64,000 bases of DNA from Thermoleophilum album. GTDB lineage: Bacteria > Actinomycetota > Thermoleophilia > Solirubrobacterales > Thermoleophilaceae. Where the stretch lies: the NCBI RefSeq assembly GCF_900108055.1, contig NZ_FNWJ01000002.1, positions 754,382-818,381 on the forward strand, read 5' to 3'. Positions 46,039 to 60,104 of this stretch are shown here, in pieces (position 1 is the stretch's first letter; each line of letters starts with the position of its first letter). The notes below the pieces were generated by a model, which made no database searches, had not been told where the DNA came from, and worked only from the letters and a program-made list of their open reading frames with translations. The position numbers were made by a program, and so were the translations under genes.

Positions 46039-48036
46039 ATGAGCGAGCGCGCGCACCGCCTTCCGGAACCGGACAAGCCCTGGTTGATGCGCACCTACGC
46101 GGGCTACGGGACGGCCCGCGAGTCGAACGCTCTCTACCGCCGCAACCTGGCGAAGGGGCAGACGGGGCTCTCCGTCGCTTTCGATCTGCCCACGCAAACC
46201 GGCTACGACCCAGATCACGAACTGGCGCGTGGCGAGGTCGGAAAGGTCGGCGTCTCGATCGCCCACAAAGGCGACATGCATGCGCTGTTCGAAGGCATTC
46301 CGCTGGACCGCATGAACACCTCGATGACGATCAACGCAACGGCGCCCTGGCTGCTCGCGCTGTACATCACGGTGGCCGAGGAGCAGGGCGTCGACCGCAG
46401 GGTCCTGCAGGGAACCACGCAGAACGACATCCTCAAGGAGTTCCTATCCCGCGGCACCTACGCGTTCCCGCCGGAGCCTTCGATGCGGCTGACGGCCGAC
46501 ACGATCGCGTTCTGCGTCGAGCAAGTGCCGAAGTGGAACCCGATCAACATCTGCTCCTACCACCTGCAAGAAGCCGGCGCAACACCGGTCCAAGAGATCG
46601 CCTACTCGCTCTCGAACGCGATCGCCGTGCTCGACCGGGTCCGCGAGCGGGTTGCCGAGGAGACCTTCCCGCGCGTCTTCGGGCGCATCTCGTTCTTCGT
46701 CAACGCCGGTATTCGCTTCATCGAGGAGCACGCGAAGCTGCGTGCAATGGCGGCGCTGTGGCGCGAGATCGGACGCGAGCGCTATGGGGTGACGGAGGAA
46801 AAGTACCTGCGCTTCCGCTACGGCGTGCAGGTGAACTCCCTAGGGCTGACGGAGCAGCAGCCCGAGAACAACATCATCCGCATCGTGCTCGAGGCCCTGG
46901 CCGTTACGCTCGGCCGCAACGCCCGTGCACGCGCGATCCAGCTGCCCGCCTGGAACGAAGCGCTCGGCCTCCCCCGGCCCTGGGATCAGCAGTGGTCGCT
47001 GCGGATCCAGCAGATCCTCGCGTACGAGACCGACCTGCTCGAGTATCCCGACATCTTCGAGGGTTCGCGCGTCATGGATGGCTTGGTCGAAGAGCTGATC
47101 GAGGGTGCGCGGGCGGAGATGGCGGTCGTAGCCGAGCGCGGCGGCGCGGTCGAGGCCGTGCCTTACATGAAGGGGCGGCTGGTGGAGTCGCACCGCGAGC
47201 GGATGCGCCGGATCGAGACCGGGGAGCTCAAGGTCGTCGGTCTGAACTGCTTCACCGAGGCCGAGCCCTCGCCGCTCCAGCAAGACCAGGACGGCGGCAT
47301 CCTGCGCGTCGATCCGCAGGTCGAGCGCGAGGCCATCGAAGCGGTGCGCGCCTGGCGCTCGCGGCGTCAACAGGACGCGGTCGAGCGGGCGCTCGAGGCG
47401 CTGCGCGAGGCGGCCCTTGACCCCTCCCGCAACACCATGGCGCCCTCGATCGAAGCGGCGCGCGTGGGCGTCACCACCGGCGAGTGGGCACAGGCTCTGC
47501 GTGACGTCTTCGGGGAGTACCGAGCACCGACCGGGGTCGCCGACGCCGCCGCGGTCGAACTGGAGCTTGAGACGCTCGCATCCGTGAGGGAGCGTGTGGA
47601 GCGTGTTTCCGAGGCGCTCGGCCGCCGCCTCAAGATGCTGGTCGGCAAGCCAGGGCTTGACGGTCACTCGAACGGGGCGGAGCAGATCGCCGTGCGTGCC
47701 CGCGACGTCGGCATGGACGTCGTCTACGAGGGGATCCGCCTGACCCCCGCGCGGATCGCGCAAGCGGCCGTGCAGGAGGGGGTGCACGTAGTCGGCCTCT
47801 CGATTCTCTCCGGCTCGCACCTGGAGCTGATCCCCGAGGTGCTGCGGGAGCTACGGGAAGCTGGCAGCGACGCACCGGTGGTGGTCGGCGGGATCATTCC
47901 CCCCGACGACGCCGAGCGCTTGAAGGAGCTCGGCGTGGCGCGCGTCTACACGCCCAAAGATTTCGAGCTGACGCGCATCATGGGCGAGATCGTCGACCTC
48001 GTAGCCGAGCACTACGGGGTCGCGGCGGCGGCTTGA
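46039..48036 (+). CDS. meaA: MeaA-type acyl-CoA mutase (ethylmalonyl-CoA mutase family), B12-dependent
   Basis: A 665-residue adenosylcobalamin-dependent mutase. The catalytic barrel is N-terminal (RTYAGYGTARESNALYRRNLAKGQTGLSVAFDLPTQTGYDPDH). NSLGLTEQQPENNIIRIVLEALAVTL and PWDQQWSLRIQQILAYETDLLEYPDIFEGS are the MeaA hallmarks that separate it from methylmalonyl-CoA mutase. The C-terminal B12 domain starts near residue 530 with VGKPGLDGHSNGAEQIAVRARDVGMDVVYEGIRLTPA. The expected DxHxxG reads LDGHSNG. The likely reaction is ethylmalonyl-CoA to methylsuccinyl-CoA, but other branched acyl-CoA substrates are possible because no crotonyl-CoA carboxylase/reductase is in the window. The stop overlaps meaB. 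Confidence 0.9.
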   Translation: MSERAHRLPEPDKPWLMRTYAGYGTARESNALYRRNLAKGQTGLSVAFDLPTQTGYDPDHELARGEVGKVGVSIAHKGDMHALFEGIPLDRMNTSMTINATAPWLLALYITVAEEQGVDRRVLQGTTQNDILKEFLSRGTYAFPPEPSMRLTADTIAFCVEQVPKWNPINICSYHLQEAGATPVQEIAYSLSNAIAVLDRVRERVAEETFPRVFGRISFFVNAGIRFIEEHAKLRAMAALWREIGRERYGVTEEKYLRFRYGVQVNSLGLTEQQPENNIIRIVLEALAVTLGRNARARAIQLPAWNEALGLPRPWDQQWSLRIQQILAYETDLLEYPDIFEGSRVMDGLVEELIEGARAEMAVVAERGGAVEAVPYMKGRLVESHRERMRRIETGELKVVGLNCFTEAEPSPLQQDQDGGILRVDPQVEREAIEAVRAWRSRRQQDAVERALEALREAALDPSRNTMAPSIEAARVGVTTGEWAQALRDVFGEYRAPTGVADAAAVELELETLASVRERVERVSEALGRRLKMLVGKPGLDGHSNGAEQIAVRARDVGMDVVYEGIRLTPARIAQAAVQEGVHVVGLSILSGSHLELIPEVLRELREAGSDAPVVVGGIIPPDDAERLKELGVARVYTPKDFELTRIMGEIVDLVAEHYGVAAAA

Positions 48037-49025
48037 CTATCACGCGCGGAGCGAGCGCCCGGGGCCAGGAGCGGAAGGTCCGGGAGCTAGCTCGCCGGCT
48101 TTTGGCCCACGATACGAGGGCCGCACCGGCCGTCCTTAACATCATCGAAGAGCGCTCGCCACAGGGTCGCGCACGCGCCGAGCTGCTGCTGGCGGAGATC
48201 GCCCGCGCGCTCGACCCCCAGGCGAGCGGCGCGGTGATCGGCGTTACCGGTCCACCGGGGGCCGGCAAGTCCACGCTCCTCTCGGCACTAGTGCGCGAGT
48301 GGCGCAAGCGGGGTCGCACCGTCGCGGTGCTGGCGGTCGATCCCTCTTCGCGGCGGTCGGGCGGGGCCCTGCTCGGCGATCGCGCGCGCATCGACCACGA
48401 CCCACGCGACCCGGGCGTGCTGATCCGATCAACCGCTGCTGGCGGTCGGCTGGGCGGGGTCGCGCCGTCGACCAACGCTGCCGCCGAGGCGATGGCGGCC
48501 TGCTTCGACATCGTGGTCGTGGAGACCGTCGGCGTTGGCCAATCGGAAACCGACGTCGAGGATCTAGCGGACGTCGTGGTGCTGGTGGTGCAACCGGGGT
48601 CCGGCGACGTCTTGCAGTTCCTGAAGGCCGGGATCATGGAGGTCCCCGACCTGCTGGTCGTAACCAAGGCCGACCTCGGTGCACCAGCGCGTCGCGCCCG
48701 CCAGGACCTCGAGCAGGCGCTCGCTGCGCTCGGCGCTTCGACCATCCCGGTGCTGGAGGTCTCAGCGCTGCCCCCCGGGCGCGGGATCGTCGAGCTGGCG
48801 GACGCTATCGACCAGCGCCTGCAGACGGTCGATCGGCGCGCGCGCCGCCTAGGCGGTCGGCGCGCCGCCGCCGTGCGCGAATTCCGCAGCGAATACGGGG
48901 AGCGCGCGCTGCGGGCGCTCGGTGGCGAACGCGCCGCGCTCGAGCGACTCGCTCGCGAGTCGCCGCACGCTACGCTGCCGGAGTTGGTCGCGACGCTCGC
49001 GCGCGCAGCAGGAGTCGAGCCCTGA
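48033..49025 (+). CDS. meaB: MeaB, GTPase chaperone of the B12-dependent mutase
   Basis: A 330-residue G3E-family GTPase that loads and protects adenosylcobalamin in acyl-CoA mutases. Walker A is VTGPPGAGKSTLLSALVREWRKRG, then VLAVDPSSRRSGGALLGDRARI, the Walker B/switch region DIVVVETVGVGQSETDV, and VVTKADLG (base-specific NKxD variant TKAD). The C-terminal helices (VREFRSEYGERALRALGG) form the dimer arm. The TTG start at 48033 overlaps the meaA stop as TTGA, giving tight coupling and probably equal dosage with the mutase. Confidence 0.94.
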   Translation: MTITRGASARGQERKVRELARRLLAHDTRAAPAVLNIIEERSPQGRARAELLLAEIARALDPQASGAVIGVTGPPGAGKSTLLSALVREWRKRGRTVAVLAVDPSSRRSGGALLGDRARIDHDPRDPGVLIRSTAAGGRLGGVAPSTNAAAEAMAACFDIVVVETVGVGQSETDVEDLADVVVLVVQPGSGDVLQFLKAGIMEVPDLLVVTKADLGAPARRARQDLEQALAALGASTIPVLEVSALPPGRGIVELADAIDQRLQTVDRRARRLGGRRAAAVREFRSEYGERALRALGGERAALERLARESPHATLPELVATLARAAGVEP

Positions 49026-49267
49026 CCGAAAGCCGACCGCACCGAGACTCGCCAGACCCAGCCGCGGCCACCGCGCGCCGTTCGGGCGCTGCGCGAGCGC
49101 TGCTGCGCACGCTCGCGCTGCCGCTGCTGGCGTTCGCCATAGCGACGGCGATCGCCCTGGCGCTAGGTGCCGCCAACCTCGGCACCGCGGCGACCATTGG
49201 ACAGCTCGTGTTCGCAGCGACACTGGTGGCCTCGCTGCTCGGCTGGACGGATAGGCTGCGCCCATGA
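49022..49267 (+). CDS. Possible small two-helix membrane protein
   Basis: An open frame of 81 codons fits exactly between meaB and the LLM gene, with junctions CTGA (start/meaB stop) and ATGA (stop/LLM start). It encodes LLRTLALPLLAFAIATAIALALGA and ATIGQLVFAATLVASLLGW, two membrane helices. There is no ATG, GTG or TTG before the first helix, so it would need a CTG start at 49022. The junctions and hydrophobicity argue for reality and the missing start argues against. A second CTGA junction occurs at 63558. Confidence 0.4.
   Translation: MTESRPHRDSPDPAAATARRSGAARALLRTLALPLLAFAIATAIALALGAANLGTAATIGQLVFAATLVASLLGWTDRLRP
49252..49257 (+). promoter_or_regulatory. -10 element TAGGCT, leaderless promoter of LLM gene
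   Basis: TAGGCT with a 6-nt spacer to the ATG at 49264. The LLM gene can therefore be transcribed independently of meaAB. Confidence 0.5.
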
Positions 49268-50241
49268 CACTTGGCGCTTTCGTATCACCCGGTCGCTCGC
49301 TCGAGCGGACCCTCGAGCGCGTCGAGCTCGCCGACCGCCTCGGCTTCTCCGCGATCTTCACGACCCACATCGCGAGCTACGACTCGCTGACTGTGCTGAT
49401 GGCGTACGCCGCTCGCAGCCGCCACGCACGGCTCGGCACCGGTGTGCTGCCGATCTACTCGCGGACACCTGTGGCCTGTGCGCAGCAAGCGGTAACGGTC
49501 GACGCCTTCTCCGGCGGCCGCCTCGTGCTCGGACTCGGCGTGTCACACGCGCCCATCGTCGAGGGTTGGTACGGGCAAAAGATCGACCGTCCGGTGGGCG
49601 ACATGCGCCAGTACGCAGGCGTGGTGCGAGCGATCCTGCGCGGCGAAGAGCCGCCAACGAGCGACCGTTTTCCCACATCCTTCCGCTTCGCCGGTGTCGA
49701 TCCCCGACCAGAGGTGCCGATCTACCTAGCCGCCCTGTCGCCGCGCATGCTGCGCCTCGCCGGGGAGATCGCCGACGGCGTGGTGCTGTGGTTGTGCGTG
49801 CCCGAGTACGTCGCGTCGACCGTGGTGCCAGAGATCCGCGCTGGCGCCGAGCGCGCCGGTCGCGATCCGCAGTCGATCGCGATCGTCGCCGCGGTACCCG
49901 CGGCCGTTACCGACGACCGAGAAGCCGCTGCCGAGCGCTTGCGCAACGACCTCATCCCCTACTTCTCGCTCCCCTTCTACCGGGCGATGCTCGAGCGCTC
50001 GGGGTTCGGGGACGAACTCGCCGCCTTCGATCGAGCGCTCTCGGATGGCGGTCCCGCCAAGGCGGCAGCCGCGATCTCCGATCGCTTCGTCGGTGCCCTG
50101 GCGGCAATCGGGTCGGCCGAGGAAGCTCGCGCCGTCGTCGCGCGCTACGCCCAAGCGGGCGCGACGCTGCCGTGCGTGGGGCCGATCCCCGGCACCGAGT
50201 TCACCTCGACGCTCGAGGCGCTCGCTCCGAACCGGCGCTAG
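49264..50241 (+). CDS. LLM-class oxidoreductase, probably F420-dependent
   Basis: A 325-residue luciferase-like monooxygenase-fold enzyme. MTLGAFVSPGRSLERTLERVELADRLGFSAIFTTHIASYDSLTVLMAYAARS, TGVLPIYSRTPVACAQQAVTVDAFSGGRLVLGLGVSHAPIVEGWYG and PIYLAALSPRMLRLAGEIADGVVLWLC are typical of actinobacterial F420-dependent LLM proteins, with the RLVLGLGVS loop contacting the cofactor. The F420 biosynthesis genes in this window make F420 the likely cofactor, but FMN cannot be excluded. The substrate is unknown; the position after meaAB may be coincidental given its own promoter. The stop overlaps the convergent lipoprotein gene by 4 bp. Confidence 0.88.
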   Translation: MTLGAFVSPGRSLERTLERVELADRLGFSAIFTTHIASYDSLTVLMAYAARSRHARLGTGVLPIYSRTPVACAQQAVTVDAFSGGRLVLGLGVSHAPIVEGWYGQKIDRPVGDMRQYAGVVRAILRGEEPPTSDRFPTSFRFAGVDPRPEVPIYLAALSPRMLRLAGEIADGVVLWLCVPEYVASTVVPEIRAGAERAGRDPQSIAIVAAVPAAVTDDREAAAERLRNDLIPYFSLPFYRAMLERSGFGDELAAFDRALSDGGPAKAAAAISDRFVGALAAIGSAEEARAVVARYAQAGATLPCVGPIPGTEFTSTLEALAPNRR

Positions 50242-50648
50242 CGCAAGCCCTCGATCCGCCAGCCGTCGGCGAGGCGGCGGAAGACGATGATGTCGCGCAC
50301 CGGCGGCTCGCCCGCGGCGCGGGAGCGAACGACCGCGGTAGCGAGACCCCCGCGTATGGCGATCGACTCGATTCGAATCTGCGGGTCACGCAAGCCATTC
50401 GCCGTAGCCGCGACGAAGCGTGCGCAGTTGGCGCCACCCGCGCGCGCCCGTGCTGCCGGGGTGAAAAGACGGTCGCAGATTTCCCCCCAATCGCCGTTGC
50501 GCGCGGCCGCCGCAAGCTCCGCCACGACGGCTGCCACGGCGTTGGCTTCTGGCGATGCCGGCGGCGGTTCGGTATCCCGTCCGATCGAGCAGCCGCCGGC
50601 CGCCAACGCGAGCGCGGCCGCGAACAGGCGAGCGCGGAGCGTCGTCAT
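50238..50648 (-). CDS. Small lipoprotein with SnoaL/DUF4878-like domain
   Basis: 136 residues. The signal TLRARLFAAALALAAGGCSIG has a lipobox AGGC (Cys near residue 19). The mature part, EANAVAAVVAELAAAARNGDWGEICDRLFTPAARARAGGANCARFV followed by IRIESIAIRGGLATAVVRSR and DIIVFRRLADGWRIEGL, has the helix-then-sheet outline of NTF2/SnoaL-like or DUF4878 lipoproteins. It sits on the outer membrane face with unknown ligand. The ATG at 50648 faces the divergent gene at 50677, with a TATGCT hexamer between them. An in-frame upstream start is rejected for lack of signals. Confidence 0.78.
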   Translation of the reverse strand: MTTLRARLFAAALALAAGGCSIGRDTEPPPASPEANAVAAVVAELAAAARNGDWGEICDRLFTPAARARAGGANCARFVAATANGLRDPQIRIESIAIRGGLATAVVRSRAAGEPPVRDIIVFRRLADGWRIEGLR

Positions 50649-50661
50649 TCGGCGAGCGGGC

Positions 50662-50669
50662 AGCATAAT
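50662..50669. promoter_or_regulatory. Overlapping divergent -10 elements (lipoprotein / unknown gene)
   Basis: Rightward CATAAT (50664-50669) lies 7 nt before the ATG at 50677. Leftward TATGCT (50667-50662) lies 13 nt before the ATG at 50648. The two hexamers overlap by 4 bp, so only one polymerase can bind at a time. Confidence 0.45.
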
Positions 50670-50676
50670 GGGGCTG

Positions 50677-51279
50677 ATGGAAGGTTCGGCCCGAGAGTCG
50701 GTCGGCACGCTTTCGAGCTGGCTGCGCTGCTACCGCTGCTGGTCACGCAACCTCGAAGTGCAGGTGCACTACGAGGGAATCCTGAAGATCGATCCGGAGA
50801 CCGGCGAAGCCGAGGATCCGGTCGAAGAGGTCCAGGAAGCGGTCGTTCAGTGCCTCGACTGCATGCACGATCAGCCACATTTGAGCCTCGCCTTTTACGA
50901 GATCGACGGCCGGCGAGTAAGCCGTCTCGAACCCGTCGAGGATCGTTGGGAGCGACTCGTCACGGGCACGCCCTGGGTTGCCTCCTGCACGGTCACGGTC
51001 GACGCCGACGAGGTCGAGACGTGCTCGGGCCCGGAGGCCGCAGAGTCGCTGGCGTATGCGGCTTTCGGTGACTACGGCACACGCGAGTTCTTCACCCACG
51101 TTCGCTTCCACAAGCACGAGGACGACAAGATCGTGGTGCACCTGCTCGTCGAGCTCTATGCGCGCTCCGCCGAGGAGGCCACACAGGTGCTGGAGCAGGC
51201 TGCACGAGGCCCGCTGGCGATCACCTCCCTGGCTGAGGAGTCGCGACCGCCGGCGGCGAGCGGCGAGAGCCCTCACTAG
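50677..51279 (+). CDS. Hypothetical protein with two CxxC pairs (200 aa)
   Basis: 200 residues, family not recognised. Two cysteine pairs, LRCYRCWSRN (about residue 18) and QCLDCMHDQPH (about residue 61), could form a zinc or iron site. The rest is acidic alpha/beta: HYEGILKIDPETGEAEDPVEEVQEAVV, CTVTVDADEVETCSG, FFTHVRFHKHEDDKIVVHLLVELYARSAEEATQVLEQAARG. The ATG at 50677 is preferred because the earlier ATG at 50668 overlaps the -10. It lies 52 bp before the formyltransferase gene and could belong to the same transcription unit. Confidence 0.7.
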   Translation: MEGSARESVGTLSSWLRCYRCWSRNLEVQVHYEGILKIDPETGEAEDPVEEVQEAVVQCLDCMHDQPHLSLAFYEIDGRRVSRLEPVEDRWERLVTGTPWVASCTVTVDADEVETCSGPEAAESLAYAAFGDYGTREFFTHVRFHKHEDDKIVVHLLVELYARSAEEATQVLEQAARGPLAITSLAEESRPPAASGESPH

Positions 51280-51331: not shown

Positions 51332-52330
51332 ATGTCGAGACCGCCGGAGCAAGCGGCGGTGCGAGCCGCCGACGCTGCGGACCGGGCCACGCCGCGTCTC
51401 GTGCTGATCGCCGAGGAGGCGGCCGGGGCGCGAGTACTCAGGCTGCTCACAGAGCGACAGCTGTTGCCCCTCACCGTGCTCACCGACGGGGTGGGAGCGC
51501 CCTCCGAAGGTCTCGCTCCGGTAGCTCGCTTGGCCCGGCTTCACGGCTTGCCGCTGATGCCCGCCCTTCGTGCACGCGAAGGCGCATTCGCTGAGTGGCT
51601 CGAGCGGCAACGGGTGGACCTCCTGTTGAACGTGCACTCGCTGCACGTGCTGCCGCGGGAGGTGGTGGAGGCGCCGCGGATCGGCGCCCTCAACCTGCAC
51701 CCTGGACCGCTCCCTGAGCTCGCCGGCCTGAACGCACCGAGCTGGGCAATCTTCATGCGCCGCCCCGAGCACGGAGTCACGCTGCACTGGATGGACGCCG
51801 CGATCGACGCCGGTCCCGTGGCTTACGAGGAGCGCTTTGCCCTGACCGGGCAGGAGCGCGCCTTCCAACTGGCGGCCCGCTGCGCTGAGCTCGGTGTCGG
51901 GTTGATCGCACGCCTACTCGACGATCTCGAAGCTGGCCGCCCGCTGCCTCGCCACGCCCAGGACCGCGCTCGCCGTCGCCTGCTTCCGCCCGCCCCACCC
52001 GAAGGGACGGAGCTCGTTTGGGAGCGCCCCGCCCGTGACCTTGAGGCACTCGTGCGCGCCTGCGACTGGGGGCCGTTCGCGTCCCCGTGGGGTCACGCCT
52101 GGACGCGCTTGCCGGACGGTCGGCAAATCGCGGTGCTGCGCGCACGCGCCGTCGAGAAACCAATCGGCGCCCCCACCGCCGCGCCGCCGGGAACGGTCCT
52201 CGCCGTTACCGATCGCTGCGCGCTGGTCGCAGCGGGTCGCGACGTGCTCGAGCTCTCCCGGGTGCAGATCGACGGCCGCCTTGTAGAGGCCGGACAGGCG
52301 CTGAGAGCAGGCGACGTGCTCGGCGTCTAG
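51332..52330 (+). CDS. Free-standing formyltransferase (Fmt-like N- and C-domains)
   Basis: 332 residues. It carries the 10-formyl-THF-dependent formyltransferase core: VDLLLNVHSLHVLPREVVEAPRIGALNLHPGPLPELAGLNAPSWAIFMRRPEHGVTLHWMDAAIDAGPVAYEE. HPGPLP and the downstream D of MDAAIDAGPV match the catalytic N/H/D set. The C-terminal half has the OB-like Fmt_C pattern (GTVLAVTDRCALVAAGRDVLELSRVQIDGRLVEAGQALRAGDVLG). It is unlikely to be the housekeeping Met-tRNA formyltransferase, because the N-terminal Rossmann part is atypical and it sits in a cluster with a monooxygenase, an adenylation enzyme and a carrier protein. In that setting it may formylate an amine on a carrier-bound amino acid, as the F domain of the linear gramicidin synthetase LgrA does. 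Confidence 0.85.
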   Translation: MSRPPEQAAVRAADAADRATPRLVLIAEEAAGARVLRLLTERQLLPLTVLTDGVGAPSEGLAPVARLARLHGLPLMPALRAREGAFAEWLERQRVDLLLNVHSLHVLPREVVEAPRIGALNLHPGPLPELAGLNAPSWAIFMRRPEHGVTLHWMDAAIDAGPVAYEERFALTGQERAFQLAARCAELGVGLIARLLDDLEAGRPLPRHAQDRARRRLLPPAPPEGTELVWERPARDLEALVRACDWGPFASPWGHAWTRLPDGRQIAVLRARAVEKPIGAPTAAPPGTVLAVTDRCALVAAGRDVLELSRVQIDGRLVEAGQALRAGDVLGV

Positions 52331-52373
52331 GCACACTCTCGGAGCGCCGATGGCGACACCGAGGTGCCTCGAC

Positions 52374-52379
52374 TAGTCT
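52374..52379 (+). promoter_or_regulatory. -10 element TAGTCT upstream of the cluster LLM gene
   Basis: TAGTCT with a 9-nt spacer to the GTG at 52389. It suggests that monooxygenase, adenylation and carrier genes form one transcript, with the formyltransferase gene 58 bp upstream possibly separate. Confidence 0.4.
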
Positions 52380-52388
52380 GTTTCGTGC

Positions 52389-53459
52389 GTGTTCCCGGCC
52401 CGCAACCTGCTCAGGGTCTTTGCAACCTGCCCCCAATCGAAAGACCACTCCCCCGCCGACTACCGGCGGCGGGTGGCCGACGTTGCCCGTTGGAGCGAGC
52501 AGGCGGGCTGCGAAGGAATCCTCGTCTACACCGACAACAGCATCTGTGACCCCTGGCTGGTGGCGCAGGCGCTGATCGCGGCGACCAAGCGGATCGTCCC
52601 GCTCGTGGCCGTACAGCCGGTTTACATGCACCCCTACACGGTCGCGAAGCTGGTCACCTCGCTCGCCTATCTCCACGGCCGCAAGGTCGCCTTGAACATG
52701 CTTGCCGGCGGTTTTCGGGGCGATCTCTTGGCGCTCGGCGACGACACCGAGCACGACCTGCGCTACCAACGCACCGCGGAGTACACACGCATCGTCATGG
52801 CCCTTCTGCGCGGCGAGAAGGTGACGTTCGAGGGGCGCTGGTGGACCGTACGCCAGCTTGCCCTGGAACCACCGCTGCCACCCGAGCTAATGCCGGAGGT
52901 GTTGGTGTCGGGCTCCTCCCCGGCAGGTCTGCGCACAGCCGCCGAGCTCGGCGCGACACCGGTGCGCTACCCGCGCCCGCCGGGCGAGGAGAGCGACCTG
53001 CGTGGCGGTGTGCGCGTGGGGATCGTCGCCCGCCCGAGCGCCGAAGAAGCCTGGTCGGTCGCGCGCGACCGCTTTCCCGGCGATCGCAAGGGGCAACTTC
53101 TGCACCGTCTGGCGATGCAGATCTCGGACTCGCACTGGCACCGCCAGCTCGCCAGTCGCGAACACGCCGCGCCCGCGCCCTACGCCGCCGCGACGCCCGA
53201 CGCCCCTGCGACGCCCGGCACGGCCGGCCAGCAAGCTGAGGAACCCAATCCCTACTGGCTCTGGCCCTTCCAGAACTACAAGACATTCTGTCCTTATCTC
53301 GTAGGCAGTTACGAGCGGGTCGGTCGCGAACTGGCGGCTTACGTGAAGCAAGGGGCCGACCTCTTCATCCTCGACATCCCGCCGACGCGGGAGGAGCTCG
53401 AGCACGTGCGACAGGCCTTCGCTCTCGCTGCCGCGGAACTCGCCGCCGTCGGCCGATGA
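52389..53459 (+). CDS. LLM-class flavin monooxygenase (SsuD-like) in the carrier-protein cluster
   Basis: A 356-residue luciferase-fold monooxygenase. RNLLRVFATCPQSKDHSPADYRRRVADVARWSEQAGCEGILVYTDNSICDPWLVAQALIAATKRIVPLVAVQPVYMHPYTVAKLVTSLAYLHGRKVALNMLAGGFRGDLLALGDDTEHDLRY and TAEYTRIVMALLRGEKVTFEG resemble FMNH2-dependent alkanesulfonate monooxygenases. Natural-product members of this fold (the MupA/Atu3640 group) act on carrier-bound intermediates. An Ala/Pro-rich insert lies near residues 255-285. The next gene starts within its stop codon (ATGA), so it is translated together with the adenylation enzyme. FMN or F420 is the cofactor; it could N- or C-hydroxylate an aminoacyl thioester. Confidence 0.87.
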   Translation: MFPARNLLRVFATCPQSKDHSPADYRRRVADVARWSEQAGCEGILVYTDNSICDPWLVAQALIAATKRIVPLVAVQPVYMHPYTVAKLVTSLAYLHGRKVALNMLAGGFRGDLLALGDDTEHDLRYQRTAEYTRIVMALLRGEKVTFEGRWWTVRQLALEPPLPPELMPEVLVSGSSPAGLRTAAELGATPVRYPRPPGEESDLRGGVRVGIVARPSAEEAWSVARDRFPGDRKGQLLHRLAMQISDSHWHRQLASREHAAPAPYAAATPDAPATPGTAGQQAEEPNPYWLWPFQNYKTFCPYLVGSYERVGRELAAYVKQGADLFILDIPPTREELEHVRQAFALAAAELAAVGR

Positions 53460-55144
53460 CCGCGGGTGCGCCGCGCAGACTCGAGGAATTCCTGACCGCT
53501 GCTGCACGCACGGCGCCTGACGCCACCGCCGTCGTGCTCGACGACCAGCTCTTGAGCTTCGGCGAGCTCGACGAGCTGAGTTCGCGACTTGCGGGCGCCC
53601 TGGTCGAGCTTGCGGGCTGCCGACCGGGCGACCGCGTCGCGCTGGTCTGCAGCAAAACGCCGCTCGCGCTGGTGGCGATCCACGCCGTCCTGAAGGCCGG
53701 GTGCGCGTACGTACCTGTCGATCCCGACAGCCCGCCGGCGCGGAGCGTCCGCGTGCTGCGTGCCTCGGAGCCGCGGGCTGTCGTCTGCGACGGTGCTGGC
53801 ATCGAACGCTGGCGAGCGGCTCGCGAAACGGCTGCGGCGGAGCACACGGTCGGCGCGCAGGCGGCTCCCGGAGCAAGCGAGGGCACCTTCGCCAATGCCG
53901 TAACCGTGGCTTTGACGGAAGACGCCGACTGCGACATCGGCCCCGACACCTGGCGCCGCCAGCCGCCCTTCCTGCTGCCAAGCGCTGCGCGAGCGCACGC
54001 CGAGGTTGCGCAGATTCTCTTCACCTCGGGGTCGACGGGCGAGCCGAAGGGCGTCCAGGTGACCCATCGCAGTGCGTTGGCGTTCGTCGAGTGGGCGGTC
54101 GGACACTTCGGTATCGAGCCGGGGGAGCGCCTCTCGGGCCACCCGCCGCTGCACTTCGACCTCTCGACCTTCGACATCTTCGGGGCGATGCACGCCCGTG
54201 CCGAGCTGCATCTGGTGCCTGCCCGGCTGAACGTCGATGCGCACGGTCTCGCCGCCTTCATCCGCGAGCGCGAGCTGACGCAGTGGTTCTCGGTGCCCTC
54301 GGCGCTCACCTTCATGACCCGTTTCGAAGCGATCCGATCGGGCGACTTCCAGTCGCTGCGAAGACTCCTCTGGTGCGGCGAGGTACTGCCGACGCCGGTC
54401 CTGCGCAAGCTCATGGAGCGCTTACCGCACGTCCGTTTCACCAACCTCTACGGACCTACGGAGGCGACGATCGCGTCGAGCTACTTCGACGTCCCGCGGA
54501 TCCCCCCGAGCGACGACGAGCAGATCCCGATCGGCCGGCCTTGCCCTGGCGAGGAGCTGCTGATCGTCGGCGAGGACGGTCGTGAGCTCGGTGTCGACGA
54601 GGTCGGGGAGATTTGGATCGCCGGGGTCGGACTTTCGCCCGGCTATTGGCGCGACCCGGCGCGCACACGCGCGGCCTTCGTGCCCCACCCGCGCGATCCC
54701 GCTCGCCGCTGTTACCGCACGGGGGACCTAGGCCGACGCGACCGGGCTGGCCTGTTCTACTTCCACGGTCGTCGCGACTCCCAGATCAAGCACCGTGGTT
54801 ATCGCATCGAGCTCGGCGAGGTTGAACATGCACTCAACAAGCTCCCGGGCGTTCGCGAGTGCGCGGTCGTCGCCGTACCGACCGGCGGCATCGAGGGCAC
54901 CGCGATCTGCGCCGCCTGGAGCCGCCGCCCGGGCGACGACACCGACGCGATCGCGTTACGCCGCGCGCTCGCCGAGGCGTTACCCCGTTACATGCTCCCC
55001 ACGCGCTGGCTCGAGCTTCCCGATCTGCCCAAAAACGTCAACGGCAAGATCGATCGCCGGACTCTCCGCGAGCGCTTCCTCGAGGAGCTGGCCGGCCCCG
55101 CTAGCGATCACGAGCGCCACGAAGTGAACGATGCGCGCACTTGA
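53456..55144 (+). CDS. Stand-alone amino-acid adenylation enzyme (NRPS A-domain/DltA-like)
   Basis: A 562-residue ANL enzyme activating an amino acid as AMP ester for thiolation. Core motifs: LKAGCAYVPVDPDSP (A2), ILFTSGSTGEPKGVQVTH (A3), HFDLSTFDIFGAM (A4; the Asp binds the alpha-amino group, so the substrate is an alpha-amino acid), NLYGPTEAT (A5), GEIWIAGVGLSPGYW (A6), CYRTGDLGRRD (A7), HGRRDSQIKHRGYRIELGEVEHAL (A8) and NVNGKIDR (A10, catalytic Lys). LLWCGEVLP carries the Cys seen at the D-Ala pocket of DltA. An unusual insert of about 60 residues lies between A2 and A3 (near 115-175). No condensation or thioesterase domain is attached. It overlaps the carrier gene by 14 bp. Confidence 0.92.
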   Translation: MTAGAPRRLEEFLTAAARTAPDATAVVLDDQLLSFGELDELSSRLAGALVELAGCRPGDRVALVCSKTPLALVAIHAVLKAGCAYVPVDPDSPPARSVRVLRASEPRAVVCDGAGIERWRAARETAAAEHTVGAQAAPGASEGTFANAVTVALTEDADCDIGPDTWRRQPPFLLPSAARAHAEVAQILFTSGSTGEPKGVQVTHRSALAFVEWAVGHFGIEPGERLSGHPPLHFDLSTFDIFGAMHARAELHLVPARLNVDAHGLAAFIRERELTQWFSVPSALTFMTRFEAIRSGDFQSLRRLLWCGEVLPTPVLRKLMERLPHVRFTNLYGPTEATIASSYFDVPRIPPSDDEQIPIGRPCPGEELLIVGEDGRELGVDEVGEIWIAGVGLSPGYWRDPARTRAAFVPHPRDPARRCYRTGDLGRRDRAGLFYFHGRRDSQIKHRGYRIELGEVEHALNKLPGVRECAVVAVPTGGIEGTAICAAWSRRPGDDTDAIALRRALAEALPRYMLPTRWLELPDLPKNVNGKIDRRTLRERFLEELAGPASDHERHEVNDART

Positions 55145-55466
55145 GGACCACGTCATCGAGGTGATGAAGAGGGCGCTCGCGCTCGAACCTCCTGCGCGCG
55201 ACAGCGACCTCTTCGAAAGCGGGCTGATCGACTCGCTCGGTCTGGTGACGCTGATCACCGAGCTCGAGCAGGAGTTCGGGTTCCAGCTGCCCCTCGAACA
55301 GTTCGACCTCGACTGCTTCCGAACCGTGACCTCGATCGCGGCCCAGATTGCCCTACACGTGGAGCAGCGAGACGAGCGCGAGGAGCACGACGATGCCGCC
55401 GCGCTCAGCGCTGCCGACGCGCGTCGGGTCGCGCGACTCGAGGAACAACACGAGCGCGATCAGTAG
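55131..55466 (+). CDS. Acyl/peptidyl carrier protein (DltC-like)
   Basis: 111 residues. The first 80 form a carrier domain: EDHVIEVMKRALALEPPARDSDLFESGLIDSLGLVTLITELEQEFGFQLPLEQFDLDCFRTVTSIAAQIA. DSL supplies the phosphopantetheine serine (residue 35). The fold pattern is closest to the D-alanyl carrier DltC. The charged tail after HVEQRDEREE overlaps an opposite-strand membrane-protein gene by 114 bp and is probably disordered. It should receive the amino acid from the preceding adenylation enzyme. No DltB or DltD homologue is nearby, so teichoic-acid alanylation is unlikely. Confidence 0.9.
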   Translation: MRALEDHVIEVMKRALALEPPARDSDLFESGLIDSLGLVTLITELEQEFGFQLPLEQFDLDCFRTVTSIAAQIALHVEQRDEREEHDDAAALSAADARRVARLEEQHERDQ

Positions 55467-57240: not shown

Positions 57241-58860
57241 GTGCCAAGCGAGCAGCAGCCGCACGCGCCCCATGATGCTCGCACGCTTGGCGTTCTGTCG
57301 CGGGCGTTGCGTGCGCACGCCTTCCTGATCGCGGTAATCACACTCCTAGTGCTCGCCGCGGCGCTCGGTTGGCGACTCCTCCGCCCACCGACTTACGAAG
57401 CGCACGCGCAACTACTCGTCACGCCGGTGAGTGCCGACGACCCGACCTTCCTCGGATTTGACGTCGTGCGCGACACCCCGGGCGACCCGACGCGCACGAT
57501 GCAGACCGCGGCCGCCCTCGTCGAGTCGCCGGCGGTCGCCCAGGCGGTAGCTCGCCAATTGGGCGACGGCTGGACGAGTGATCGGGTGCTCGAGGCCGTG
57601 CAGGTCGAGCCAATCGGGCAGAGTAACCTGCTCGACGTCGGTGCACGCGCAGGTGATCCGCGCACCGCTCAACGCCTGGCGGACAGCTTCGCGCGCGCGG
57701 CGCTCGACGTCCGCTCGGCGGCCCTCCGCCAACAGGCGCGGATCGAACTCGCGCGCTTGCTCTCGCAGCAGCGCAGCACCGGCGTGCAGACGCTCGAGCC
57801 GAGCACCGACCTCGCCAATCGCATCGATCGCCTGCGCACGGTGGTCGCGCGGGGCGACCCGACGCTCTCGATTTCGCGCGCCGCCGAACTGCCGCGTGCA
57901 CCGCTAGGTCCCCCCGTGATCTTCGTAGCGCTCGCCGGGTTAGTCGGCGGACTCGGCTTGGGGGTGGCATCGGCCCTGCTCCTCGACCAGCTTCGTCAAA
58001 AGGTCCGCGACGAAGAAGAGGCCCAGCAGATCCTGGAGCTGCCGGTACTGACGCGCGTCCCCCGGCTCGCGGCGGCTCCGGAGCCCCGCGCAGGCGGCAG
58101 CCCGAGCTTCCCGAGCGAGGTCTGGGAATCGTTCCGTACGGTCGTCGCTCAACTCCACTTCAACGGCGCGCGCGCCGCTGCGCGCGGAGCGGGCGGCGCC
58201 GGCAACGAGCCGGAGCTGGGGCGCGGGATCTTGCTGACGAGCGCCTCCAGCGGCGACGGCAAGACGACGTCGGCGACGGCGCTCGCGATGTCGCTGGCTG
58301 CCACCGGACACCCCACGATCCTGCTCGACCTCGACCTGCGCAAACCCGACGTCGCCTCGCGGCTCGGTGTTCCGGCGTTGCAGCAGTTGGCCGTCGACGA
58401 CCTGCTCGAGCTAGACCCTGAAGAGTTGATCGCTAGACGCCTGGTGAGCGTTCCTGGCTCACCTCAGTTGCGGGCACTCGTCATCCGCCGCGACATCGCT
58501 GATGGCGCCCCGATCGACCTCGTATCGAGCCGCTACCGCGACCTCCTCGATGCCGCTCGCCGCAGCGCCACCTACGTGGTCGTCGATTCGCCGCCGCTGG
58601 GACACGTCGCCGACGCGTTAGCGATCGTTCGCAGCGTCGATCTCGTGCTGCTGGCCGTGCGTCCGGGCTGGACGGACCGGCGCGAGCTGCGTTTGGCTCG
58701 CGATTTGCTGGCACGGGCGCGTGCCCGCCTAGGCGGCTACATCGTTTGCGGCGTGCGCACCGGCCGACGCGGTTACTACGGCTACGGGCAAGCCGCCGGC
58801 GCTCAGCAGGCAGCCGCGACCGGCGAACAGCGCAAGGCGCTGGCGCAGCAGCAGCGGTAG
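57241..58860 (+). CDS. Wzz-domain/BY-kinase fusion for exopolysaccharide chain control
   Basis: 539 residues. The N-terminal Wzz/GNVR-like membrane adaptor spans residues 1-245, with helices AFLIAVITLLVLAAALGWRLL and PVIFVALAGLVGGLGLGVASALLL. The C-terminal bacterial tyrosine kinase carries Walker A LLTSASSGDGKTTSATALAMSLA, Walker A' ILLDLDLRKPDVASRLG and Walker B TYVVVDSPPLGHVADA. The tail YYGYGQAAGAQQAAATGEQ holds a few tyrosines for autophosphorylation, fewer than usual. The protein would regulate polysaccharide polymerisation at the membrane. The start is a leaderless GTG. The 3' end and downstream DNA are CAG-rich. Confidence 0.9.
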   Translation: MPSEQQPHAPHDARTLGVLSRALRAHAFLIAVITLLVLAAALGWRLLRPPTYEAHAQLLVTPVSADDPTFLGFDVVRDTPGDPTRTMQTAAALVESPAVAQAVARQLGDGWTSDRVLEAVQVEPIGQSNLLDVGARAGDPRTAQRLADSFARAALDVRSAALRQQARIELARLLSQQRSTGVQTLEPSTDLANRIDRLRTVVARGDPTLSISRAAELPRAPLGPPVIFVALAGLVGGLGLGVASALLLDQLRQKVRDEEEAQQILELPVLTRVPRLAAAPEPRAGGSPSFPSEVWESFRTVVAQLHFNGARAAARGAGGAGNEPELGRGILLTSASSGDGKTTSATALAMSLAATGHPTILLDLDLRKPDVASRLGVPALQQLAVDDLLELDPEELIARRLVSVPGSPQLRALVIRRDIADGAPIDLVSSRYRDLLDAARRSATYVVVDSPPLGHVADALAIVRSVDLVLLAVRPGWTDRRELRLARDLLARARARLGGYIVCGVRTGRRGYYGYGQAAGAQQAAATGEQRKALAQQQR

Positions 58861-58973: not shown

Positions 58974-60104
58974 TTACTCGTCGGAAGCGCGCGGGGAGCG
59001 GCCGGAAGGTCGTCGCAGACGGCCGCGCAAATGCAGCGCTGCGCGCCCGCCGCGGGCTAGCAAACGGGCGACCGGCGAAGCCGCGAACGCATAGGTGAAA
59101 ACGCCCGGGTCGCGGGTCGCGAAGCGGTACTTGTAGCCCTCGTCTCCGAGCAGCATCCGATACTCGCGCATGCCTTCCTCGGCAGCTTGGGCGATCGCCC
59201 GCGCGAACAGCACGAAGCCCAACGACCAGCGGTCGTAGGTGGGGTCACGCCCGATCTGGTAGTTGCTTTCGACGCCGGCGAAACGGAAGCCGTACAGGGA
59301 CGCGACCGCGTCACCGGAGTCGGTCTCGGCGATCCATAGGCGCGTCCACCCGCGCTCCAGCGCGACCTTCGCGAACTCGCGGTGGAACGCCTCGCGCGGC
59401 CCCGTGAAGGCCACCGAGCGCTCGCCGAAGCGAATCCTGTGGAGCCGCAGGAGCGTCGCGAAGTCCCGCTCGAAGGTGGCCGGCTCGGCGAGTCGGAAGC
59501 GCAGGCCAAGCTCCCTTACGGCGCGGCGCGTCTTGCGTCGCACTTGCTGGCGAAAGTTGGCGCTTCGCGCCGCGAGGTACGCCTCGAAACCACCTTCCGG
59601 AAGATCGACGACCGGCCACGCTTCACGGCGCAGCAGCAGCGGCCGTGACACTTTCCGGCGCGGCAGTAGCGGCCGTGACGATTGCGGAGCGCCCGCGTCG
59701 GCGGCGCGATCGCTTCGCTCCGAAGCCGGGGCGGCGTCGGCGTCGGTCTCGGCTCGCTCATCGTGGTGGACGCGATCGACGATCAAGAGCGGAGCGACTT
59801 GCGCCACCGCGGCCGCTAGCTCGGGCATTGCGCGCCACGCCCCCGGTCGGCCGATCGGCCCTAGCTCGTCAGCCGGTCCGTGTCCCGCCGTGCGCGCGAC
59901 CGTAAGGGGCCCGATGCGCCGCACCTCGAGCGGCAGGATCAGCTCGCGCGCGCGGTCGACCGCGATCACGCTGCGACCGTTCCCGAGGTGTCGCCACCAA
60001 ACGCTGTGCCACTCGGGGGTCGCGAAGACATTGGTCGACCGCTCGGCAAGCTCGGCCCAGAGCCCAGCAAGGGTGTCTTGGTCTTCGACTAGTTCGACCG
60101 TCAC
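58974..60104 (-). CDS. GNAT/FemAB-like acyltransferase (BioF2/CelD type)
   Basis: 376 residues. The C-terminal GNAT fold fits the GNAT_6 group often found in exopolysaccharide clusters: YLAARSANFRQQVRRKTRRAVRELGLRFRLAE, FATLLRLHRIRFGERSVAF, GWTRLWIAETDSGDAVASLYGFRFAGVESNYQIGRDPTYDRWSLGFVLFARAIAQAAEEGMREYRMLLGDEGYKYRFA. The N-terminal FATPEWHSVWWRHLG is also characteristic. A short internal duplication (SRPLLPRRKV/SRPLLLRREA, about residue 143) matches a DNA repeat near 59640-59680. The start is GTG at 60104. It probably acylates a sugar or lipid precursor; the substrate is unknown. Confidence 0.85.
   Translation of the reverse strand: MTVELVEDQDTLAGLWAELAERSTNVFATPEWHSVWWRHLGNGRSVIAVDRARELILPLEVRRIGPLTVARTAGHGPADELGPIGRPGAWRAMPELAAAVAQVAPLLIVDRVHHDERAETDADAAPASERSDRAADAGAPQSSRPLLPRRKVSRPLLLRREAWPVVDLPEGGFEAYLAARSANFRQQVRRKTRRAVRELGLRFRLAEPATFERDFATLLRLHRIRFGERSVAFTGPREAFHREFAKVALERGWTRLWIAETDSGDAVASLYGFRFAGVESNYQIGRDPTYDRWSLGFVLFARAIAQAAEEGMREYRMLLGDEGYKYRFATRDPGVFTYAFAASPVARLLARGGRAALHLRGRLRRPSGRSPRASDE

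Follow-up and report, generated by a model that had tools for sequence, protein, structure and literature searches.

A putative carrier-tethered amino-acid tailoring cassette with an exchangeable formyl or carbamoyl cap gene, from Thermoleophilum album and many other bacteria

Introduction

The closest described systems each resemble a part of the locus reported here. The initiation module of linear gramicidin synthetase (LgrA) brings formylation, adenylation and carrier functions to bear on one amino acid, DltA and DltC take part in adding D-alanine to a cell-wall polymer, and the substrate that ArnA formylates is a UDP-aminosugar. Luciferase-like monooxygenases of the palmerolide, calyculin and mandelalide pathways have been proposed to carry out alpha-hydroxylation or cleavage of carrier-bound chains (PMC8739492). 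Here, we describe a cassette of four genes at positions 51332-55466 of a 64,000-nucleotide stretch of the Thermoleophilum album genome (the window), encoding a formyltransferase (FMT), a luciferase-like monooxygenase (LLM), an adenylating enzyme (A) and a carrier protein (ACP).

The four genes act as one unit, and in many relatives the formyltransferase gene is replaced by a carbamoyltransferase gene. We give about an even chance to the reading that the cassette is a carrier-tethered amino-acid tailoring pathway, in which an oxidised, formyl- or carbamoyl-capped small aminoacyl group would be transferred to an amine, probably that of a surface glycan.

Results and Discussion

The four genes and their conservation as a unit

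The cassette consists of the following genes:

51332..52330, plus strand: FMT, a formyltransferase of the two-domain ArnA/Fmt type (PF00551, 57.8 bits; PF02911, 34.8 bits)
52389..53459, plus strand, GTG start: LLM, a luciferase-like monooxygenase of SsuD fold, putatively of the type using reduced flavin mononucleotide (FMNH2) (PF00296, 106 bits)
53456..55144, plus strand: A, a stand-alone amino-acid adenylating enzyme (TIGR01733, 370 bits, cut-off 317)
55131..55466, plus strand: ACP, a carrier protein of the acyl or peptidyl type (PF00550, 44 bits), with the phosphopantetheine serine in a DSL motif

An earlier sequence-only reading of this DNA had placed four open reading frames in a row, the last three overlapping, and all of them are found there, on the plus strand, with the expected family matches. 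A gap of 58 bp separates FMT from LLM; the LLM-A overlap is 4 bp (ATGA) and the A-ACP overlap 14 bp. FMT keeps the Asn-x-His...Asp residues of formyltransferases (NLHPGPLP...D). The A motifs are found in A, including the A4 aspartate and the A10 lysine (equivalents of D235 and K517); judged by these two residues and its family score, A is predicted to be an amino-acid adenylating enzyme of the nonribosomal peptide synthetase (NRPS) type, as had been proposed. The source genome (2.2 Mb in 5 contigs), whose nearest relatives are Thermoleophilia, encodes one AcpS.

A scan of about 85,000 species yielded 220 relatives of LLM, and the loci of 80 of these were examined. They span Actinobacteria, Proteobacteria, Planctomycetes, Acidobacteria, Gemmatimonadetes, Nitrospira, Trueperaceae and others. 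A follows LLM directly in 70 of the 75 loci with enough downstream sequence, across many phyla, and a carrier gene lies near the LLM-A pair in 63 of 81 loci. The order FMT-LLM-A-ACP recurs in genomes G001, G024 and G060 (Conexibacter arvalis), and LLM-A-ACP stands at a contig end in G002. By contrast, an A-like gene lies near only about 1 in 25 of the distant LLM loci of the relatives. A close LLM is sporadic among them: of the 61 genomes searched, 5 have one, counting that of the window. The co-occurrence that the sequence-only reading suggested looking for is thus present in related genomes, where the homologues stand together and are not scattered.

An exchangeable cap gene

The gene that would cap the product differs between loci. 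Close to LLM, a formyltransferase gene occurs in 21 of the 81 loci, a carbamoyltransferase gene of NodU/CmcH type (PF02543 and PF16861) in 31, and both together in none. When only the 51 loci with long flanks on both sides are counted, 13 carry FMT, 26 the carbamoyltransferase and 12 neither (Fisher P = 1.1e-5, uncorrected for kinship). A quick LLM tree was built from 82 rows, the window sequence being there twice, and has some long branches. Parsimony puts at least 8 changes of cap label on it, and starred branches require at least 4. Within it, a carbamoyl-bearing Actinomycetospora clade is the sister group of the FMT clade to which the window belongs (SH-aLRT 99), and no carbamoyltransferase scores over the cut-off in the window's genome.

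The cap genes are mutually exclusive and have been exchanged repeatedly. The formyltransferase was rightly counted in the unit before, and its interchange with a carbamoyltransferase had been missed. Because the two genes exclude and replace each other, we read them as supplying two alternative one-carbon (C1) caps, presumably on the same carrier-bound intermediate.

Two variants were seen beside these patterns. Three Actinomycetospora loci (L050, L056 and L059) carry GNAT, LLM, A and ACP genes and, unlike their close relatives, no carbamoyltransferase in the searched flank. In Methylocaldum (L084:7632-9710) and Methyloversatilis (L118:7390-9525), a haem-oxygenase-like diiron protein is encoded between the carbamoyltransferase and LLM; PF14518 scored for the L084 copy. 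Haem-oxygenase-like diiron domains include N-oxygenases.

A nearly fixed amino-acid code

Aligned to GrsA, A yields the specificity code DLFFLCLIAK. The form DL[FHSYQ]F[LIMV]C[LIV]IAK is nearly invariant in about 70 LLM-linked A enzymes, whichever cap gene is present, and it extends to A enzymes encoded a few genes away from LLM. Other A genes of the same loci have unrelated codes, and two A homologues at 42-43% identity, from genomes lacking LLM, have DLFYLALVCK and DLFYVALVCK. Code position 301 is a cysteine within a CGEVL motif, which recalls what we take to be the DltA arrangement. The remaining positions look bulkier than those of the DltA sequence as we presume it to be; we treat this as a lead, and for this reason place glycine first. 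The pocket suggests a very small amino acid, with glycine as the best guess.

A monooxygenase with a remodelled sulfonate site

LLM is likely to be a two-component monooxygenase using FMNH2, since its predicted fold is closest to those of MsuD, SsuD and SfnG (Z about 32). Arg297, His228 and Trp196 of SsuD (mature numbering, allowing a one-residue offset for the initiator Met) correspond to Tyr, Gly and Tyr in LLM, and Arg226 is kept. LLM scores 100 bits against the SsuD equivalog model, which demands 518. SsuD-type desulfonation was rejected because these sulfonate active-site residues are replaced; from the same comparison, activity on sulfonates appears unlikely, and we assign LLM to a distinct clade with a remodelled sulfonate site. 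LLM does not match TIGR04020, which is absent from the 16 NCBIfam matches.

More distant members of the clade lie in secondary-metabolite clusters together with carrier-protein, NRPS, halogenase-like, P450 and phosphopantetheinyl transferase (PPTase) genes. Plasmids of Gemmobacter, Tritonibacter, Rhizobium and Streptomyces carry distant relatives of LLM (L035-L039), clustered there with genes for A domains, halogenase-like flavoproteins, P450s, acyl-CoA dehydrogenases and PPTases.

A formyltransferase of ArnA/Fmt type

Compared with solved structures, FMT matches ArnA (E = 1.6e-33) and Fmt (2e-31) far better than the F domain of LgrA (about 3e-6). The NLHPGPLP motif or a close form is kept in 19 of the 22 cassette formyltransferases scored, and the remaining three fell outside the search pattern. 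Against the Met-tRNA formyltransferase model TIGR00460, FMT reaches 77.5 bits (cut-off 201.5). We rejected a housekeeping role as Fmt or PurN, since the genome encodes PurN and a canonical Fmt-like gene elsewhere; FMT is therefore not the sole Met-tRNA formyltransferase, a possibility that had been raised. The same genome has a further formyltransferase-like gene next to a glycosyltransferase gene (L003; G000:C1:637165-637590), perhaps a true aminosugar formyltransferase.

The sequence-only reading had likened the cassette to the gramicidin module taken apart into separate proteins. This descent is not borne out, as A fits the second A domain of LgrA and DltA at least as well as the first A domain of LgrA. 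Since FMT stands near ArnA and Fmt and well apart from the LgrA F domain, we consider the gramicidin picture a fair functional analogy and not the origin. No condensation domain was found in the whole genome, in agreement with the claimed absence of a condensation gene, and NRPS initiation was rejected on this ground.

A tandem GNAT and a glycan setting

Some GNAT gene is present in 41 of the 81 loci, usually one for a predicted tandem-GNAT N-acyltransferase. This family of about 360 residues lies beside the cassette in about 20 genus-level groups and has no Pfam or NCBIfam match. Its predicted structure (pLDDT 90) shows two GNAT domains in the arrangement of N-myristoyltransferase (NMT) and aligns with NMT1 over 297 residues (Z 21.6, rmsd 4.8); from this fold, of NMT/Eis type, the family is predicted to consist of N-acyltransferases. 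The window's genome holds a 49%-identical copy 28 kb downstream of the cassette, on the far side of the polysaccharide locus.

In two sets of loci, the most frequent neighbouring gene family is that of the glycosyltransferases. Just past the window are genes for Wzy, Wzx, an initiating sugar transferase and two families of glycosyltransferase, and downstream of the cassette the window itself contains:

57241..58860, plus strand: a polysaccharide chain-length protein of Wzz/tyrosine-kinase type (PF02706, eps_fam)
58974..60104, minus strand: a FemX/BcsL-like GNAT (Acetyltransf_6; PF13480, 93 bits), common in exopolysaccharide loci

Cap interchange, the tandem GNAT and the glycan context together lead us to think that the group is more probably transferred to an acceptor amine than released as a free small molecule. 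The sequence-only reading had allowed either outcome; it had overlooked both the tandem GNAT and the glycan context.

On the other side, the cassette directly follows a block at 46039-51279 that encodes methylmalonyl-CoA mutase, MeaB, an F420-type LLM and a conserved 203-residue protein. The block is kept in family member G022, in which no LLM of the cassette clade was found. The segment 49264-51279 (the F420-type LLM and the 203-residue protein) was considered as a part of the cassette and rejected, as it stays with the mutase and MeaB genes in G022.

Proposed pathway and its rivals

In the proposed pathway, A would activate one small amino acid and load it onto ACP, whose phosphopantetheine arm would be added by the genome's AcpS. 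LLM, with FMNH2 from a separate reductase, would next oxygenate the tethered aminoacyl group. We prefer N-hydroxylation, with C-alpha hydroxylation as the main rival site, because the formyl group on nitrogen and the carbamoyl group on the N-OH would then share a single site. FMT would next formylate the nitrogen, and in many relatives the carbamoyltransferase would cap the installed hydroxyl in place of formylation. Finally, the tandem GNAT may take the capped acyl group off ACP and attach it to an amine, most likely that of an aminosugar in a surface polysaccharide.

Hadacidin is N-formyl-N-hydroxyglycine, known from fungi. A rather doubtful, more specific version of the pathway holds that the carrier bears an N-formyl-N-hydroxyglycyl thioester, a hadacidin-type hydroxamate, with an O- or N-carbamoyl N-hydroxyglycyl counterpart elsewhere, and that these groups are installed on surface polysaccharides.

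Several observations weigh against the proposed pathway. Neither cap gene is carried by 12 of the 51 long-flank loci, some loci are without nearby glycan genes, and the GNAT copy of the window's genome is not adjacent to the cassette, lying 28 kb off on the other strand among unrelated genes. The glycine assignment is based on a pocket comparison with a DltA sequence that we presume. Enzymes of CmcH/NodU type normally place carbamoyl groups on the hydroxyls of many scaffolds, and a sugar could therefore be the target of the cap.

That last point opens an alternative which we consider unlikely, namely that the cap enzymes act on an aminosugar or a sugar hydroxyl, and that A, ACP, LLM and GNAT form a separate route by which an oxidised aminoacyl group reaches the same glycan. 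The closeness of FMT to ArnA and Fmt and the prevalence of glycosyltransferases as neighbours agree with it, but genes for independent decorations would not be expected to exclude each other strictly and to replace each other repeatedly while the LLM-A-ACP core stays constant, and FMT lies between A and ACP in several loci (L078, L086, L111 and L112). The oxygenation site is a separate matter. It is possible, though we lean the other way, that LLM oxygenates carbon, by C-alpha hydroxylation or a Baeyer-Villiger-type cleavage, such that carbamoyl caps that hydroxyl and formyl the amine. For the related SsuD, SfnG and EDTA monooxygenases, carbon is the site of oxygenation. The carrier-acting LLMs of palmerolide, calyculin and mandelalide offer a proposed precedent (PMC8739492), but those belong to TIGR04020, which this LLM does not match, and a shared N-OH site accounts more simply for the exchange between formyl and carbamoyl.

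Release from the carrier as a small free metabolite (an antibiotic, chelator or signal), with no link to a polysaccharide, also seems improbable to us. The secondary-metabolite clusters around distant clade members and the scarcity of glycan genes at some loci speak for it, yet the cassette has no thioesterase or condensation gene in a genome that has no condensation domain, and the tandem GNAT and glycosyltransferases recur. Least probable by far is D-alanylation of a cell-wall polymer. DltA and DltC are near families of A and ACP, and A has a cysteine at code position 301 in CGEVL, but A reaches 284.5 bits against the DltA model (TIGR01734, cut-off 559.85) and ACP 45.2 bits against the DltC model (NF003464, cut-off 68), LLM and the cap genes are foreign to Dlt systems, and neither DltD (PF04914) nor a DltB-type MBOAT (PF03062) was found in the whole genome. 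A Dlt system was rejected on these scores and absences, which agree with the earlier claim that dltB and dltD are missing and that teichoic-acid alanylation does not explain the genes.

Novelty and implications

A few exact-term literature searches returned no description of this gene set, a result that does not prove its absence from the literature; the cassette is widespread and appears to be undescribed. It would represent a carrier-protein tailoring route across many phyla, in which the amino-acid code hardly varies and the C1 cap can be exchanged. The pathway, if confirmed, would link NRPS-like chemistry to glycan decoration; it would also explain what a distinct clade of SsuD-fold monooxygenases and an unannotated family of tandem GNATs do. 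Should the N-formyl-N-hydroxyglycyl version be true, it would define a widespread, undescribed class of glycan decoration, possibly metal-binding. As a compact set of separate enzymes, the cassette is open to step-by-step assay.

Comparison with known systems

We file the cassette as a new variant within carrier-tethered amino-acid tailoring. It shares three of its functions with the F-A-PCP module of LgrA, but they reside in separate proteins instead of a single polypeptide, with an extra monooxygenase, an FMT of ArnA/Fmt type and no condensation domain in the genome, and in relatives carbamoyl replaces formyl. With DltA and DltC it has in common a stand-alone A enzyme, a carrier and the cysteine at code position 301, and differs in scoring under their cut-offs and in lacking DltB-type MBOAT and DltD genes. 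ArnA and other aminosugar N-formyltransferases have the same two-domain formyltransferase and surface-glycan setting, whereas FMT has no fused dehydrogenase, belongs with an aminoacyl-carrier cassette and can be exchanged for a carbamoyltransferase.

LLM has the TIM-barrel fold of SsuD, MsuD and SfnG, but its sulfonate residues are replaced and its neighbours point to carrier-protein chemistry, not sulfur scavenging. Like the TIGR04020 enzymes of palmerolide and calyculin, it is proposed to oxygenate a carrier-bound acyl group, and the palmerolide pathway also has a carbamoyltransferase (PMC8739492); here, however, the LLM subfamily is another one, no polyketide synthase accompanies it, and a single loaded amino acid would be the substrate. 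Hadacidin is the product predicted if glycine is N-hydroxylated and N-formylated, with the difference that hadacidin is a free fungal metabolite and the group proposed here would be a carrier-bound acyl.

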